Assembly (NCBI GenBank): GCA_016180645.1
Contig: JACPAV010000016.1
Coordinates: 68,214 to 132,213, forward strand
Length of the DNA stretch: 64,000 nt
DNA from: Nitrospirota bacterium
Lineage (GTDB): Bacteria; JACPQY01
Direction of reading: 5' to 3'
The notes below the pieces were generated by a model. It worked only from the letters and a program-made list of their open reading frames with translations, did not search any database and was not told where the DNA came from. How positions within the stretch are numbered: position 1 is the stretch's first letter; each line of letters begins with the position of its first letter. The translations under genes were made by a program, and so were the position numbers. Below are positions 7,021 to 43,519 of the stretch, piece after piece.

Positions 7021-9132
7021 CTATCGCAAATCGCCGGTCAGCTGGTCCTGTGGAGAACCGGTGTTCTCCAGATTCCCCGAAGAGTCCTTCACCCCATCCC
7101 AGGCGATCTGAAAGCAATCTCCGGATTCATTGGCCGAACCCGCGACGGTGAGTTCGAAATGGCCTTCGCGGCCATTGACCCAAACGAACGTACTCTGTCC
7201 CGGCACCGTGGTATTCGAAGCGGCCGTTCCGATATCGGAGCAGCCTGTTTGTCCTTCATCGGTCAGCGTGAGCGTGGGGGAAACCTTCGTATCCATGAAC
7301 TCGCTGCAACGAACGCGAAGATAGATTTTCTTGTCGGTGGCGGTCGTGTTCTGGCCGCTGTCATTTTGCCCGGCGGCATTGATCGCCGGCTGATTCCCCG
7401 ATGCGGAATCCAGGTCCGCGCTGCATGCGGCCGGCGATCCGGAGAGGGCGCACAGGCTGCACGTGGGCGGTTTCTTGTCGATGAACTTGCGTGCCGTGTC
7501 CGGATTGGGCGCCGAGGGGAGTCCGTCCCGATTCCGGCCCACCACCGACACGAAGATCTGGTTTCCCTCGGAGAAGGGCGTGGCGTCATCCACGGCCTCG
7601 CCCACCGTTCCGTCGAGGTCGGCGTCATCATTGGGCGTCACATCGAAGGCCGCCAGGGAGAGGGTGGCCACCACGAATTCGCCGCGCGATCGCACGTTGT
7701 TCGCAGACGGCGTGATGTCCGTCCAGTCGGCGTTTCTCTTCGTATCCCGGGCGAACACGGCATAGCCGGAGACATCGGCGAGACTCTTCCACAGGATCTG
7801 CACGGTGGCCGAGTTCCAATCGACATCCGATTCCGTGCGGGTGGGACTGCCCACGTCCGAGTCCAGCGTCACGCCGGTCACGGCCGGGGCGTCCGGCTGA
7901 TTGCTCTTGACCGGCCGGAGGTTGAGCGTGAAGCCCGTGCCTCCCAGCGTGGTCCCGAGGGTGCTCCGCGCATTCGCCGAAATCGCTAGCACGTAGCGCC
8001 CTCCGGGCGCCAGGTCCAGGGACGTGGTCACCAATAACTTTACGCCGTTTTCCAGCTTGAGGTTCACGGCCACCGGATCTCCCTGGCCGGCGTTTCCGCG
8101 CAGCGTGACCAGCGGCGAGGGTGGATCCGTTGCGGACCCCGCATCGATATTGGCTTCCAGAGAAGCGTCCATCGGGATGTTGAACACGATCGCGATCGGA
8201 TTCTGGCTCGTGGTGTATGGAATGGCGCGGAAGAGCGCGCCCGGCTCCACGGTGGACCACACCACGGACGGAACGGGTCGGCCGGGATCGGAGCACAGGC
8301 TTTCAGGCGGCGGAGAGAGGTTCAGCGGATTACAGGCCGCCGAACTCCGAAGATTGATCAACACGTCTTCGCTCCCCTCGGCGTTGCGCCCGAACTGGGT
8401 CAGATTGATCGCGGTGGAACTGACCCACGTCCCGTATTCGGGCACTCCATTCCCGTCGATGTCGAGTGGAAGGACGTACAAGTTGCCGGCCGCGAGCACG
8501 GCGCGAGGGAGTTTGGCCTCCTCGGTCCCGATGGCAAAACGCCCCTCACCGTCCGTGTTCACTCCCCAAACGCGGGGGACATCCTGAAATCCCTGGGCCA
8601 GAAAATCCACGACGAAGTTGACGCCCCGATCTCGAAACTCCCCTCCGCCATCCGTCGAAAAGATGCGGCCCCGCAGGATGGCGTTACGCTGTACGAGGGA
8701 GGCGTTCTGCGTGGCGATGGGATCCTCGGAGGAGACCGGTTGGGTCTGCGCGGCCGCGCCCGTAATCAATCCCACGATGGTCACCTGGGTCGACCATTCC
8801 GAGTACACCCGCTCCTCGCCCTGCACCATGGCGCTGCCCGCGAAGGAAACGGGAATCGCCGCCTCCACCGGAACATTTCCGATGGCATACGACCCCGCCT
8901 CGCTGAAACGGGTCTGGGGGTCGTCGTCCAGCGTCAGCGTCGTATTCCACTTCTTGTCGAAGAAGGCCGAGACCTGGATCCGGGAGAGCCGTTCGCCGCC
9001 CTCCGCATCCCGCACGATTCCCTGGATCGTACCCCGATTCACACGGATGTTTTTTTCGGCGACCGGTTGCTCGATGCAACCCGCGGCCAGCAGGGTCGCG
9101 AGCGCTATGAACCGCTCAGGCTGGTGGAGCAC
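7021..9132 (-). CDS. lipoprotein with SbsA-type Ig-like domains
   Basis: About 703 residues. GTG 9132 is chosen because it directly precedes a lipoprotein signal with lipobox LLAAGC; the frame stays open to 9405 but that extension is low-quality and overlaps a promoter. The start lacks a clear Shine-Dalgarno site. A carboxypeptidase-regulatory-like beta domain follows (GTIQGIVRDAEGG), then an SbsA/Big_5-type Ig-like domain near the middle (IAIVFNIPMD) and another near the C-terminus (RVRCSEFMDT). No enzyme motif is seen. It is likely a cell-surface structural or adhesive lipoprotein. Confidence 0.75.
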   Translation of the reverse strand: MLHQPERFIALATLLAAGCIEQPVAEKNIRVNRGTIQGIVRDAEGGERLSRIQVSAFFDKKWNTTLTLDDDPQTRFSEAGSYAIGNVPVEAAIPVSFAGSAMVQGEERVYSEWSTQVTIVGLITGAAAQTQPVSSEDPIATQNASLVQRNAILRGRIFSTDGGGEFRDRGVNFVVDFLAQGFQDVPRVWGVNTDGEGRFAIGTEEAKLPRAVLAAGNLYVLPLDIDGNGVPEYGTWVSSTAINLTQFGRNAEGSEDVLINLRSSAACNPLNLSPPPESLCSDPGRPVPSVVWSTVEPGALFRAIPYTTSQNPIAIVFNIPMDASLEANIDAGSATDPPSPLVTLRGNAGQGDPVAVNLKLENGVKLLVTTSLDLAPGGRYVLAISANARSTLGTTLGGTGFTLNLRPVKSNQPDAPAVTGVTLDSDVGSPTRTESDVDWNSATVQILWKSLADVSGYAVFARDTKRNADWTDITPSANNVRSRGEFVVATLSLAAFDVTPNDDADLDGTVGEAVDDATPFSEGNQIFVSVVGRNRDGLPSAPNPDTARKFIDKKPPTCSLCALSGSPAACSADLDSASGNQPAINAAGQNDSGQNTTATDKKIYLRVRCSEFMDTKVSPTLTLTDEGQTGCSDIGTAASNTTVPGQSTFVWVNGREGHFELTVAGSANESGDCFQIAWDGVKDSSGNLENTGSPQDQLTGDLR

Positions 9133-10368: not shown

Positions 10369-11043
<675 letters not shown>

Positions 11044-27760: not shown

Positions 27761-28166
27761 TCGACTTTTGCCATTTCTCCATGCTGTGTGAACCTCACTT
27801 CACGAGGGAAGGCCATTTCTACGCCGTGAATTTTGAGACAGGAGCCGTTTTCCGGTCTCGTTTCAAAATTCATCGCTCAGAATCTCGCTCGGATGGGAAG
27901 GTATCTTCAGACACCGTTCAAGAATGGCAAATGCCGATTCGTAGGGGAGCATCTTCAGATGCTCCCCCTTGTCGGGAGGGTCTGAAGACCCTCCCCTACT
28001 TGCTCCCTCTTGTCGGGAGGGTCTGAAGACCCCCCCCTACTTGCTCCCCCTTGTCGGGAGGGTCTGAAGACCCCCCCCTACTTGCTCCCTCTTGTCGGGA
28101 GGGTCTGAAGACCCCCCCCTACGCATCATGACCAACATAAACCTTTCAAAAAATGGCAAAAGTCGA
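27761..28166. mobile_element. MITE-like element 2 (406 bp, perfect 16-bp inverted repeats) carrying family C hairpins
   Basis: TCGACTTTTGCCATTT (27761-27776) and AAATGGCAAAAGTCGA (28151-28166) are perfect inverted repeats. Inside: a hairpin TGAATTTTGA/TCAAAATTCA (27827-27872), then four units of a 41-bp tandem repeat (period seen at 27968, 28009, 28050, 28091) made of the family C arm GGGAGGGTCTGAAGACC. A second copy starts at 63862. No transposase is inside. Confidence 0.8.
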
Positions 28167-35011: not shown

Positions 35012-36694
35012 CTATTCCCCCGGGGCGATTTCTTCCAGGTGGAGTTTCTCGATATGCACGGGGGGCGAGTAGACGACTTCGTCGGAGGCCCAAATGATCA
35101 CCGGTTCGGAAGGACGCCCCACGGCCCGGATGCCGTTCAAAACACTCGAGACATTGTCGTTGATCCGGACGCAGTTCGCTCGGAGCGGTTTCTCCGCCCG
35201 GCCGTTTCGGATCAGAAACGAATCGCCCACGACGGTGGACGTGAAATCGCCCCGCTGCAATCCGTTGATCGGATACGTGTACCAGATCCGCCCGATGTAG
35301 ACGCCGGAATCGACATCCCGAATCAGTGACGGCAAGTCCTTTTCCCCCTCTTCGACGAGCACATTGGTGGCGGCCGTGTGCGGCGCCTGTGCGAAATGCC
35401 GTCCGGGGCTGTTGCCGTACCGGAACCCGTTTCTGAACAACTGCCGTGAAGCGAGCGTTTCAGCGGGAACGCCGAGCTTGGACTTCACCTCCGGGTCCTT
35501 CAACAGCTTGGTGCCCTCGTGGTGCGACCCCAGAATTCCCCGGAGGACCCCGCGAACGATGAGTTCCGTCTTCCCCGTGGATATGCCCTCGCACGTGAGC
35601 GCCTTGGTTCCCATGTGTCCCATACGAGAGCCATCGTCCACCAACGTGAGAAGTTCCGAGGCGACCCTCTGGTCCATCCGCCCTTGGAAGGGGGAGCTTC
35701 CTGCAAAGAACGTCCCTGCGGTCACCGCCGGCACCACCAGATTGTTGAGCATGTCCGCCATCGCCTGCGGGCCCAAGATCACGCGGTACTCCCCCGACGA
35801 AATCCGCTCCCCCCCCATGCACCGGATGGCGTTCTCCGCGGCTTGAAATCCAACACGGCCGGAGAATCCGCGCAGCTCCGGGCCGGCAAAGGTGCACGTG
35901 CCTTTCGCGTTGTCCGATTCGACCATGGCGGTCACGTAGGCCATGAGCAACGTGGTTTCATCGGAGAGAATCCCCGTCGCGTCGGTGCGGGCCAACGCCA
36001 TCCGCTCGGTCACCGCCGAAACATCTCCACTGAGGATCAGCCCCAGATCCCGCACGTCCCGGATACTCCCGGCTCGCACTTTCCCCACGATCGCGGACGT
36101 CCCCTTGCCGAGGACGGTATGGGGCCATGATATGTCGCCGTGCCATGGACGGCACGGCATGGACCATGGCCTGTCCTCCGAACCGGTCGAAAGTGCGGCC
36201 GGCATCACGCCGGACCGGGCTTTCAGCGCCTCGGAACGGGAGAACCCCTCGATCCCGCCTCGCACCACCTTCCAGCCGAGGTCGACGAGGGTCTTGTCCG
36301 ATAGGCGCGACAGTGCCGGGTCGTGGTAGCGGGCCTTCGCAGACCTTTTCTTCGCCCACGCTGGAAATCCGTGGAAGGCCGGATCGGCTACGGCATTGCG
36401 CCGGGCTTTTTCCAAAGCCCTCTTCACCCCGCGCTGAGTGAAATCGGACGCCTCGGAGCCGAAGCCGATCTTGCGGACGCCCCCCTCTTCGAAAAGGATC
36501 CTTACCGCCAACCCGCGGAACTCGTACGTCTTGGGCTCCTCCACGCCATTGCACGGGAGGTGCGAGGCGTAGTGCAGCCGGGCCGTGTGGGCGAGATTTT
36601 CCGAGGCAAACACTTCTCCGGCAACCAGGCCCTTCTCCTTCTTCACGAGCCGGAGCCCGTCGGCCACCACCTTCCGCAAAATGGAAATTCCCAT
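35012..36694 (-). CDS. TldD/PmbA-family protein (PmbA-like), with inserted repeat
   Basis: 560 residues; usual length about 450-480. ATG 36694 is chosen over 36715 because a good -10 box lies 8 nt before it. 'VRILFEEGGVRKIGFGS', 'TLVDDG', 'GNSPGRHFAQAPHTAATNVLVEEGE' and 'VYSPPVHIEKL' fit the family. The HExxxH zinc motif of TldD is absent, so it matches the PmbA/TldE partner, which forms a protease with TldD (not seen nearby). Residues about 172-195 (PWSMPCRPWHGDISWP..) are coded by an in-frame family E palindrome. Confidence 0.82.
   Translation of the reverse strand: MGISILRKVVADGLRLVKKEKGLVAGEVFASENLAHTARLHYASHLPCNGVEEPKTYEFRGLAVRILFEEGGVRKIGFGSEASDFTQRGVKRALEKARRNAVADPAFHGFPAWAKKRSAKARYHDPALSRLSDKTLVDLGWKVVRGGIEGFSRSEALKARSGVMPAALSTGSEDRPWSMPCRPWHGDISWPHTVLGKGTSAIVGKVRAGSIRDVRDLGLILSGDVSAVTERMALARTDATGILSDETTLLMAYVTAMVESDNAKGTCTFAGPELRGFSGRVGFQAAENAIRCMGGERISSGEYRVILGPQAMADMLNNLVVPAVTAGTFFAGSSPFQGRMDQRVASELLTLVDDGSRMGHMGTKALTCEGISTGKTELIVRGVLRGILGSHHEGTKLLKDPEVKSKLGVPAETLASRQLFRNGFRYGNSPGRHFAQAPHTAATNVLVEEGEKDLPSLIRDVDSGVYIGRIWYTYPINGLQRGDFTSTVVGDSFLIRNGRAEKPLRANCVRINDNVSSVLNGIRAVGRPSEPVIIWASDEVVYSPPVHIEKLHLEEIAPGE
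36103..36170. repeat. family E palindrome inserted in tldD/pmbA gene
   Basis: CCTTGCCGAGGACGGTATGG ... CCATGATATGTCGCCGTGCC ... GGCACGGCATGGACCATGGCC. It closely matches the inner parts of 11862-11930 and 43395-43462, where the element is intergenic. Here it is open in the reading frame. Confidence 0.82.
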
Positions 36695-36702
36695 GGGGGA
36701 CG

Positions 36703-36731
36703 ATCTTAGCGGCACCCGTTGTGCAACTCAA
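36703..36731 (-). promoter_or_regulatory. tldD/pmbA promoter, leaderless
   Basis: On the minus strand TTGAGT (36731-36726), 17-nt spacer, TAAGAT (36708-36703), ATG at 36694 (8 nt later). Confidence 0.6.
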
Positions 36732-38561: not shown

Positions 38562-39809
38562 GTGTCCACCTATGCGTATCGGGCACGCAGCCGCGTCGGC
38601 GAGCTCATTATCGGTACGCTCGAGGCCGACACCCAGGATCAAGTCGAGGCCCGACTGGCCAGAGACAACCTCATTCCCGTTCGCATCGAGGAGCGAAGGC
38701 CGAAGAAACTGGACGCGTTTCTGGATCGGGTCTTCAAGCGCATCAAACCCCGGGACCGGATCGTTCTCTACCGCCAGCTGGCCGCCATGTATGGCGCCGG
38801 GGTCTCGTTCACACGCATGTTGGAGACCGCGAAGAAGCAAACAGAGAATCCCCGACTCCAGAAGGTCCTGGTCCAGGTCGGGAAAGACATTCAGGAGGGC
38901 ATGAGCTTCGCCAACGCTCTCGCCCGTCACCCCGGCGTCTTTAACGAGGTGGTCATCAACATGGTCTCGGCCGGTGAGGCCGGCGGTGTCCTGGAGGAAG
39001 TGCTCGACCGAATCGGCCAGATGGCCGAGCGGGAGCTCGATCTGGACAGCAAGGTTCGCTCGGCGACGCTCTACCCCAAGATGGTTCTGGTGGCGGCCAT
39101 CCTCGGCGGCGGGGTGGTCGTGTACTTCCTGATACCCAAGTTGCAGGCCCTGTACCGCCAACTGGGAGGCGCGAACGCGGTCCTTCCCCTGCCCACTCGC
39201 ATCTTGGTGGGAATCTCGGACGCCTTCATTGCTTACTGGTACCTCGCCGCCGTGGTGTTGGGTTCGGCCTACGCTTCCTGGCGGATCCTTCTCACGCTGC
39301 CGGCGGGGCGTTACCTCGTGGACCGACTCCGGTTGAAGGTTTGGATCTTCGGATCGATTTTCGAAAGGGTGGCCATGGCGCGATTCAGCCGGATCTTCGG
39401 CAGTCTTTACCGGAGCGGCATGCCGATCCTGCAGGCCCTGGAGATCTCATCACGGGCGTTGGGCAACGCTTTCATCGCTCGAGAAGTTCTCCATACGCGG
39501 CAGTCCCTCATCGAAGGGAAAACGCTGCTGGAATCCATCGAAAGAGCCAAGGGGTTCACACCGATGATCCAGCAGATGATCGGGGTGGGTGAGGAAGCCG
39601 GGACCCTGGACCGAATGCTTCAGAAGGCCGCGGACTACTACGACAGCGAGATCGACCATTCGATCCGAACGCTGACGACGCTTTTGGAGCCCGCTCTCCT
39701 GCTCGGACTCTTCGCCATCGTCGGATTCCTGGCCCTGGCCATGTTCCTTCCCATGTGGCAGATGATATCGTTTGTGAATACGGGCGGAGGAGCGCCGGGT
39801 GTTCCATGA
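38562..39809 (+). CDS. pilC: PilC/GspF-type inner-membrane platform protein
   Basis: 415 residues from GTG 38562, 2 nt after the pilB stop. Two T2SSF domains (about 65-190 and 270-390: 'QLAAMYGAGVSFTRMLETA', 'GSLYRSGMPILQALEISS') and three membrane helices (about 180, 225, 385). It anchors the assembly ATPase in pilus and type II systems. Its TGA stop overlaps the ATG of the first micro-ORF (ATGA). Confidence 0.93.
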   Translation: MSTYAYRARSRVGELIIGTLEADTQDQVEARLARDNLIPVRIEERRPKKLDAFLDRVFKRIKPRDRIVLYRQLAAMYGAGVSFTRMLETAKKQTENPRLQKVLVQVGKDIQEGMSFANALARHPGVFNEVVINMVSAGEAGGVLEEVLDRIGQMAERELDLDSKVRSATLYPKMVLVAAILGGGVVVYFLIPKLQALYRQLGGANAVLPLPTRILVGISDAFIAYWYLAAVVLGSAYASWRILLTLPAGRYLVDRLRLKVWIFGSIFERVAMARFSRIFGSLYRSGMPILQALEISSRALGNAFIAREVLHTRQSLIEGKTLLESIERAKGFTPMIQQMIGVGEEAGTLDRMLQKAADYYDSEIDHSIRTLTTLLEPALLLGLFAIVGFLALAMFLPMWQMISFVNTGGGAPGVP

Positions 39810-39880
39810 GCGTGATGCGAATGGCCCTTTCGACATTTTGCGGCGGTCACGAAGACCGCGATGGGCGGAAAGGGCCGTGA
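39806..39880 (+). CDS. tandem micro-ORF 1 (24 aa)
   Basis: ATG 39806 overlaps the pilC stop by 4 nt. It codes for 24 residues beginning MSVMRMALSTFCGGHEDRD and ends in a TGA that overlaps the GTG of micro-ORF 2. Net basic/acidic mix, no membrane segment. It may be a real micropeptide or only a coupling device. Expression is inferred from the overlap geometry. Confidence 0.4.
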   Translation: MSVMRMALSTFCGGHEDRDGRKGP

Positions 39881-40020
39881 GCGTGAAGCGAACGGCCCTC
39901 ACGACATTTGACGGCGGTCACGAAGACCGCGATGGGCGGAAAGGGCCGTGAGCGTGAAGCGAACGGCCCTCACGACATTTGACGGCGGTCACGAAGACCG
40001 CGATCCGAGAAGAGGGCCAT
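39808..40020 (+). repeat. three exact-period 71-bp tandem repeats
   Basis: Units start GAGCGTGA at 39808, 39879, 39950, and the octamer recurs at 40021 inside the pseudopilin gene. Each unit holds a GCGGTC-ACGAA-GACCGC hairpin, and across junctions an AGGGCCGT/ACGGCCCT stem. 71 equals 25 codons minus a 4-nt overlap. Confidence 0.9.
39877..39951 (+). CDS. tandem micro-ORF 2 (24 aa)
   Basis: GTG start inside GTGA with the previous stop. It begins MSVKRTALTTFDGGHEDRD and stops in a GTGA overlap with micro-ORF 3. Nearly identical to its neighbours. The start lies in the 5' stem of an AGGGCCGT/ACGGCCCT hairpin, so ribosome passage through the upstream frame would be needed to expose it. Confidence 0.4.
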   Translation: MSVKRTALTTFDGGHEDRDGRKGP

Positions 40021-40022
40021 GA
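39948..40022 (+). CDS. tandem micro-ORF 3 (24 aa)
   Basis: GTG start overlapping the previous stop; MSVKRTALTTFDGGHEDRD, then PRRGP and a TGA that overlaps the pseudopilin ATG (ATGA). It completes an unbroken chain of 4-nt overlaps from pilC to the pseudopilin. Confidence 0.4.
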   Translation: MSVKRTALTTFDGGHEDRDPRRGP

Positions 40023-40465
40023 GCGTGACGTTGGGCTCCACGTCCGGTCGGACGATCTTCGAAAGCCTGCTGGTCGTCACCCTCATCAGCCTTCTGATGG
40101 GCGGCACGGGATTCGAGATCCAGCGGGTCGACCGGCGGGTTCGTGAAACGGCCTTGAAATGGGAACTGCGCAACCTGAGGGCCGCCATCTCTCTTTTTTC
40201 TTTCATGAACAGCCGGGTTCCGTTGTCTCTCCGAGAGGTTCATGAAAGAGGATTTGTCGAGCCGTTCCGGCGGGATGTGCGGCTGGGCGCCGTCACGGCC
40301 GAGCCGGCCCGACTGAGGCTGAGAAGCCTCATTTCCCTCGACGTGATTCAGGAAATGGGAATTGACGAGGCGGGGAATATCCTCGACCCCTTCGGAAACC
40401 CCTACGTTTTTGATCCGGAATCGGGCCGGCTTTATACCACTACCGAGGAGTACACAAGATGGTGA
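40019..40465 (+). CDS. pseudopilin-like protein
   Basis: 148 residues. A short leader is followed by 'GRTIFESLLVVTLISLLMGGTGFE', a type III signal with Gly before the cleavage point, Glu at +5 and a hydrophobic helix, as in type IV pilins and GspG-like pseudopilins. The Phe usually at +1 is Arg. The C-terminal part has 'DPFGNPYVFDPESG', the GspG-type calcium-loop-like sequence. It overlaps the kinase gene by 7 nt. Substrate of the PilB/PilC machine by context. Confidence 0.8.
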   Translation: MSVTLGSTSGRTIFESLLVVTLISLLMGGTGFEIQRVDRRVRETALKWELRNLRAAISLFSFMNSRVPLSLREVHERGFVEPFRRDVRLGAVTAEPARLRLRSLISLDVIQEMGIDEAGNILDPFGNPYVFDPESGRLYTTTEEYTRW

Positions 40466-43370: not shown

Positions 43371-43519
43371 GATGTAGGGACGCGGGCTGAAGCCCCATGC
43401 CACGGAGGGTATGGGACCATGATATGTCGCCGCACCACGGATGGTGCGGCATGTAACATGGCCCGCGGCTACCAAGAACGTGAATCCCCGGTAGGCGCAG
43501 GCTTTATGCCTGCGTCCGC
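43371..43519. repeat. composite palindromic repeat B-E-B plus partial B
   Basis: ACGCGGGCTGAAGCCCCATGCC, inner E element (CCACGGAGGGTATGGGACC ... GGTGCGGCATGTAACATGG), GCGGCTACC, then GGTAGGCGCAGGCTTTATGCC. The last part runs into the kinase gene ending at 43469 and codes for its tail. Confidence 0.8.

Follow-up and report, generated by a model that had tools for sequence, protein, structure and literature searches.

Micro-ORFs between pilC and a pseudopilin-like gene in a Nitrospirota bacterium: a probable tandem array of a dispersed, lineage-specific palindromic element

Introduction

Palindromic repeats that are read as part of proteins are best known from Rickettsia and from some REP-rich genomes. 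The RPEs of Rickettsia (Ogata et al. 2000) are palindromes that measure 105–146 bp and carry terminal inverted repeats; they lie in intergenic DNA and, in 19 genes, within the coding sequence and in frame (PMC2229807). Correia/NEMIS, ERIC and YPAL are small MITE-like elements that contain ORFs (PMC2229807). GTAG and CGTC REPs are shorter, 20–40 bp, with the tag at one end, and some of their members are intragenic (PMC3733652).

Here we analyse a stretch of 64,000 nucleotides from a Nitrospirota bacterium (the window), in which the boundary between pilC and a pseudopilin-like gene (39806–40028) is very probably made up of three tandem units, and 10 bp of a further one, of a dispersed palindromic element that is specific to the lineage. 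The element is 69–76 bp long and is laid out as a hairpin A followed by a stem C that encloses a hairpin B. Like RPEs, the family consists of dispersed palindromes that form hairpins (about 55 matches to covariance model R2 at E ≤ 0.01), and its copies sit between genes as well as in frame in conserved protein genes. Compared by description, it differs in having units of 69–76 bp, which is outside the 105–146 bp of the RPE family proper, two side-by-side hairpin domains where RPEs have terminal inverted repeats, tandem arrays, and an unrelated host lineage. With REPs and BIMEs it shares the character of genome-specific hairpin repeats that are often clustered or in tandem and sometimes intragenic, but REPs are single hairpins of 20–40 bp, whereas these units measure about 72 bp and have two hairpin domains, too large for a REP. 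The GTAG and CGTC tags were each found within a few bases of the copy ends in one of 30 copies. The genome has seven Y1 transposase genes, and within 1.5 kb of these the element gives weak matches (best E 0.034) and no clear copy, which does not fit a RAYT association. As in Correia/NEMIS, ERIC and YPAL, short repeats that are non-coding by origin provide open frames fused in frame to genes, but the long target-site duplication is absent at the copies examined (none was found at 30 other copies). The family thus works like RPEs and intragenic REPs, without a GTAG/CGTC tag or an adjoining transposase.

The array at the pilC/pseudopilin boundary

The pilC gene, encoding a T2SSF protein (Pfam PF00482, E 3.6e-59), occupies 38562–39809 on the forward strand, and its TGA stop codon (39807–39809) is shared with the first of three micro-ORFs of 24 codons each, at 39806–39880, 39877–39951 and 39948–40022 (+). 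Their translations read MSVMRMALSTFCGGHEDRDGRKGP*, VSVKRTALTTFDGGHEDRDGRKGP* and VSVKRTALTTFDGGHEDRDPRRGP*. The third leads into the ATG (40019) of a pseudopilin-like ORF at 40019–40465 (+), which has a leader followed by GRTIFESLLVVTLISLLM and gives no Pfam match. The successive joints read ATGA, GTGA, GTGA and ATGA. An earlier note on this DNA had described the 24-codon ORFs, with their coordinates and all four 4-nt overlaps, exactly, and the peptides are near-identical, as it said.

TRF reports a tandem array at 39807–40028 with 3.1 copies and 92% matches; its period is 71, again in agreement with the earlier note. The units lie at 39806–39876, 39877–39947 and 39948–40018 (+), followed by a partial fourth unit at 40019–40028 (+; ATGAGCGTGA) that is also the start and first codons of the pseudopilin gene. 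The 20-mer GGAAAGGGCCGTGANCGTGA, with up to three mismatches, matches three times in the window against an expectation of 0.05, and the tandem repeat itself is far beyond chance. The available assembly of the genome is fragmented (65 contigs, 97% complete), and the assembly process may have altered how many units the array shows. The 12-mer CCATGAGCGTGA has just two occurrences within the window, 39804 and 40017, one at either end of the array; we considered it as a target-site duplication and set this aside, as the partial fourth unit accounts for it equally well.

Folding places hairpin A of unit 2 at 39871–39899 and again at 39942–39970 (+), with the sequence AGGGCCGT-ga-GC-gtgaa-GC-ga-ACGGCCCT. 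In units 2 and 3 the start codon falls inside the 8-bp AGGGCCGT/ACGGCCCT stem. The earlier note placed every start in such a stem, and for unit 1 this does not hold: because its 5' arm is pilC sequence, its start has only a short CCAT/ATGG stem and a weak extension. Between units, hairpin A shows a compensating pair, CCAT/ATGG versus CCGT/ACGG. Stem C is GGCCCTTTC/GAAAGGGCC in the array and ACTCTC/GAGAGT in the commonest subfamily, and it encloses hairpin B (GCGGTCACGAAGACCGC). In unit 1 it spans 39823–39876 (+), with equivalents at about 39893–39947 and 39965–40018, and its pairs are kept across the family.

TRF also showed two other features in the window, a hairpin-rich 41-bp tandem repeat at 27960–28122 (4.0 copies, 96%, TGCTCCCCCTTGTCGGGAGGGTCTGAAGACCCCCCCCTACT) and, at 10855–10921, a stretch of about 64 bases that are almost all C.

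A dispersed family of two-hairpin palindromes

A DNA search of the genome itself found homologous copies on contigs C31 and C13, the latter inside a PEPCK gene. The aligned copies share the pair of hairpins, and pairing is kept where they differ (GC..GC to CC..GG in A, GGTC..GACC to GGAC..GTCC in B). A pattern for hairpin B has 25 matches in this genome against 2 for a reversed control, and most of them have a longer consensus in common, CGGYCCGGCGTGATGCCGGCCGTACTCTCGACNTTTYCGGCGGACAGGANGTCCGCGATGGNGGGGAGAGTGC. The pattern for hairpin A gave 10 matches in public genomes and 6 in viral contigs; all are without the rest of the element and were set aside as chance or unrelated coding sequence.

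A covariance model, R1, was built from 14 other copies in the genome and none of the window units. It recovers all three window units (E 1.7e-5, 4.1e-4 and 5.1e-4 for units 1 to 3, referring to the whole genome), and E values of only 1e-4 to 1e-5 mark these as a diverged subfamily. At E < 0.05, R1 has about 45 matches in the genome. The broader model R2 has 57 matches at E ≤ 0.01, in about 55 places, a few of the 57 being the same palindrome on the other strand. Copy numbers for the genome are to be read as at least these values, since the first pass scored 150 candidates and copies may have been missed. Outside this genome, R2 has three weak matches in a sister genus, the only other genome of the phylum searched, and no match at E ≤ 0.001 in 96 further genomes; with R1, a single unrelated genome gave a match, a weak one (E 0.07). 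The unit therefore belongs to a dispersed, genome-specific family of two-hairpin palindromes, and it is the fallback in the earlier note, a REP-like origin with palindromic hairpins, that is supported.

The pairing of the family is held by compensatory changes. In alignment A4, with 14 copies aligned without reference to structure, 8 of 21 pairs show double changes, and none of 500 shuffles scored as high. Among 47 distinct copies (alignment A5), 17 of the 21 pairs are changed on both sides and 94% of cells pair, with a covariation score of 0.386 versus 0.136 when shuffled and at most 0.079 with slid partners. As R2 and A5 were fitted to the structure, their covariation is not independent of it, and the independent weight is therefore carried by R1 and A4.

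Copies in genes, at tRNA ends and in other arrays

Several copies lie in frame within enzyme genes. In the PEPCK gene, the alignment runs from query residue 459 to 481 where solved structures go from 492 to 493. In a methylthiotransferase gene (RimO/MtaB-like), query residues 290–324 align to 280–290; at this place the protein carries exactly 24 residues that its sister-genus ortholog is without, which makes the latter an empty site, and a second homolog is also without them. A soluble transhydrogenase has an in-frame insertion at query residues 139–171 versus 132–141, and a FAD-linked oxidase, an RND pump and a HupE-like gene are consistent with in-frame insertion, although less exactly. Among the copies, several reading frames are in use, and both orientations to the host gene occur.

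The window holds a second family member at 36076–36217 (−; R2, 62.8 bits), in frame in a TldD/PmbA-like gene (35012–36715, −); another palindrome splits the hairpin B of this copy. A second two-hairpin palindrome of about 71 bp (GGCCATGGTCCATGCCGCGCC...GGCGACATATCATGGCC...) was also noticed, which in most copies sits inside another palindrome, with an arm on either side, as though it targeted hairpin loops; it is found at about 43393–43463 (−) in the window and at L159:3740, L170:1945, L171:5254, L176:4631, L183:10875 and L191:8029.

Four intergenic copies or arrays of the family begin within 2–3 nt of the 3' end of a tRNA gene, abutting it or overlapping it by 2–3 nt; one of the genes is for tRNA-Leu and three are for tRNA-Arg (L156:1980–2062, L158:2123–2196, L157:1970–2044 and L171:2015–2088). 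In a lipoprotein-like gene (L159:8160–11000, +), two identical copies with period 72 (8295–8439) are in frame directly before or within the signal peptide. Further tandem arrays occur on contigs C49 (period 71, diverged units) and C28, C3 and C13 (period 72), and periods range from 71 to about 76 bp.

Origin of the micro-ORF chain

Once the repeat is given, the chain of ORFs is not far beyond chance. When the unit was shuffled with GTGA fixed and a period of 71, 72% of trials kept an open frame between one GTGA and the next (P 0.72), and a third of all periods have the residue modulo 3 that a chain requires. The window array also contains NTGA-linked ORFs from TTG in another forward frame and in two reverse frames. 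The other arrays have nothing like this row of equal micro-ORFs: those on C49 and C13 lack a chain, and those on C3 and C28 have irregular links only. Sorted by codon position (1/2/3), the changes from one unit to the next number 5/5/2, which is the opposite of selection on the peptide; the third-position bias that the earlier note proposed to look for is absent. In the PEPCK copy the spacer has one base fewer than in the window units, and because of this 1-nt difference another frame is read upstream of the core. With about 55 dispersed copies, several of them in frame in enzyme genes, the micro-ORF chain therefore most likely came with the repeat and is not a dedicated device for setting translation. 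What the earlier note had held to count against its own reading largely describes what was found, with related units at dozens of sites, in both orientations, in several frames and with other periods.

In the reading that we prefer, a unit would have entered the ATGA boundary between pilC and the pseudopilin gene, and recombination or slippage at the GGAAAGGGCCG direct repeats, which border every unit, would then have amplified it. The chain of micro-ORFs would follow from the GTGA of hairpin A and the 71-bp period, and the array was presumably tolerated because the pilC stop and the pseudopilin start both stayed intact. Since start codons lie in predicted stems, it is possible that the array lowers or couples pseudopilin translation as a side effect. 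The mover of the element might, at a guess, be a Y1-type transposase. Among distant genomes, pilC/pseudopilin junctions included one ATGA joint to a prepilin-like gene (L031), but all orthologs were too remote for dating the array. A close pilC ortholog is also absent from the sister-genus genome, and no empty site for this array was found there. One can go further and propose, for this sparsely sampled phylum, a new class of small two-hairpin mobile element that inserts in frame in protein genes and flush with tRNA 3' ends, hosts palindromes in its hairpin loops, and forms arrays at operon boundaries that set downstream translation. We regard this wider proposal as unlikely.

More doubtful still, and not supported by these results, is the main reading of the earlier note, a coupler with adjustable copy number. 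Here, ribosomes leaving pilC would reinitiate along the chain and melt the hairpins over the pseudopilin start, the number of units would tune output, and the chain, although derived from a repeat, would be under selection. Each joint has the geometry of NTGA translational coupling, the commonest spacing of coupled genes (PMC12548453), and selection for coupling would likewise produce exact NTGA overlaps at all four joints. In the pseudopilin ATG and in the GTG start codons of units 2 and 3, bases 1 and 2 are predicted to be 98–100% paired, the region folds better than its own shuffles (z −4.9), and Shine-Dalgarno-like GGAAAGGG or AGAGG is found upstream of the starts. However, the coupled "genes" are here repeat units whose peptides bear no sign of selection or codon-position bias, the chain is expected from the repeat, and there is no comparable chain at other arrays. 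Structure directly after a stop codon is also reported to lower coupling (screens cited in PMC12548453).

It is improbable that the family acts as a structured RNA, such as an element for 3' processing or stability of mRNA or tRNA, and is kept at many sites for this function and not as a selfish repeat. Strong covariation and the copies that start within 2–3 nt of tRNA 3' ends would suit such a role, but many copies are inside coding genes in both orientations, and Rfam has no family match in the window. Mobile palindromes keep their pairing as well. The micropeptide family also raised in the earlier note, with the 24-residue peptides as functional products, has in its favour three near-identical peptides with starts and plausible Shine-Dalgarno sequences, but is very hard to reconcile with the 5/5/2 substitutions, with copies that are in other frames, on either strand or not ORFs at all, and with the shifted upstream half of the PEPCK copy.

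Implications

The palindromic element at the pilC/pseudopilin boundary belongs to a family that is structurally distinct from those of Rickettsia and the REP-rich genomes, and it shows the same behaviour in a lineage that is unrelated to theirs and has been little sampled. Its roughly 55 copies, its compensatory changes and the one clean empty site make it a suitable case for studying how such an element survives inside enzymes. Tandem repeats that are rich in GC give rise to chains of overlapping micro-ORFs of their own accord, and a check for repeats should precede any reading of such chains as peptide operons.
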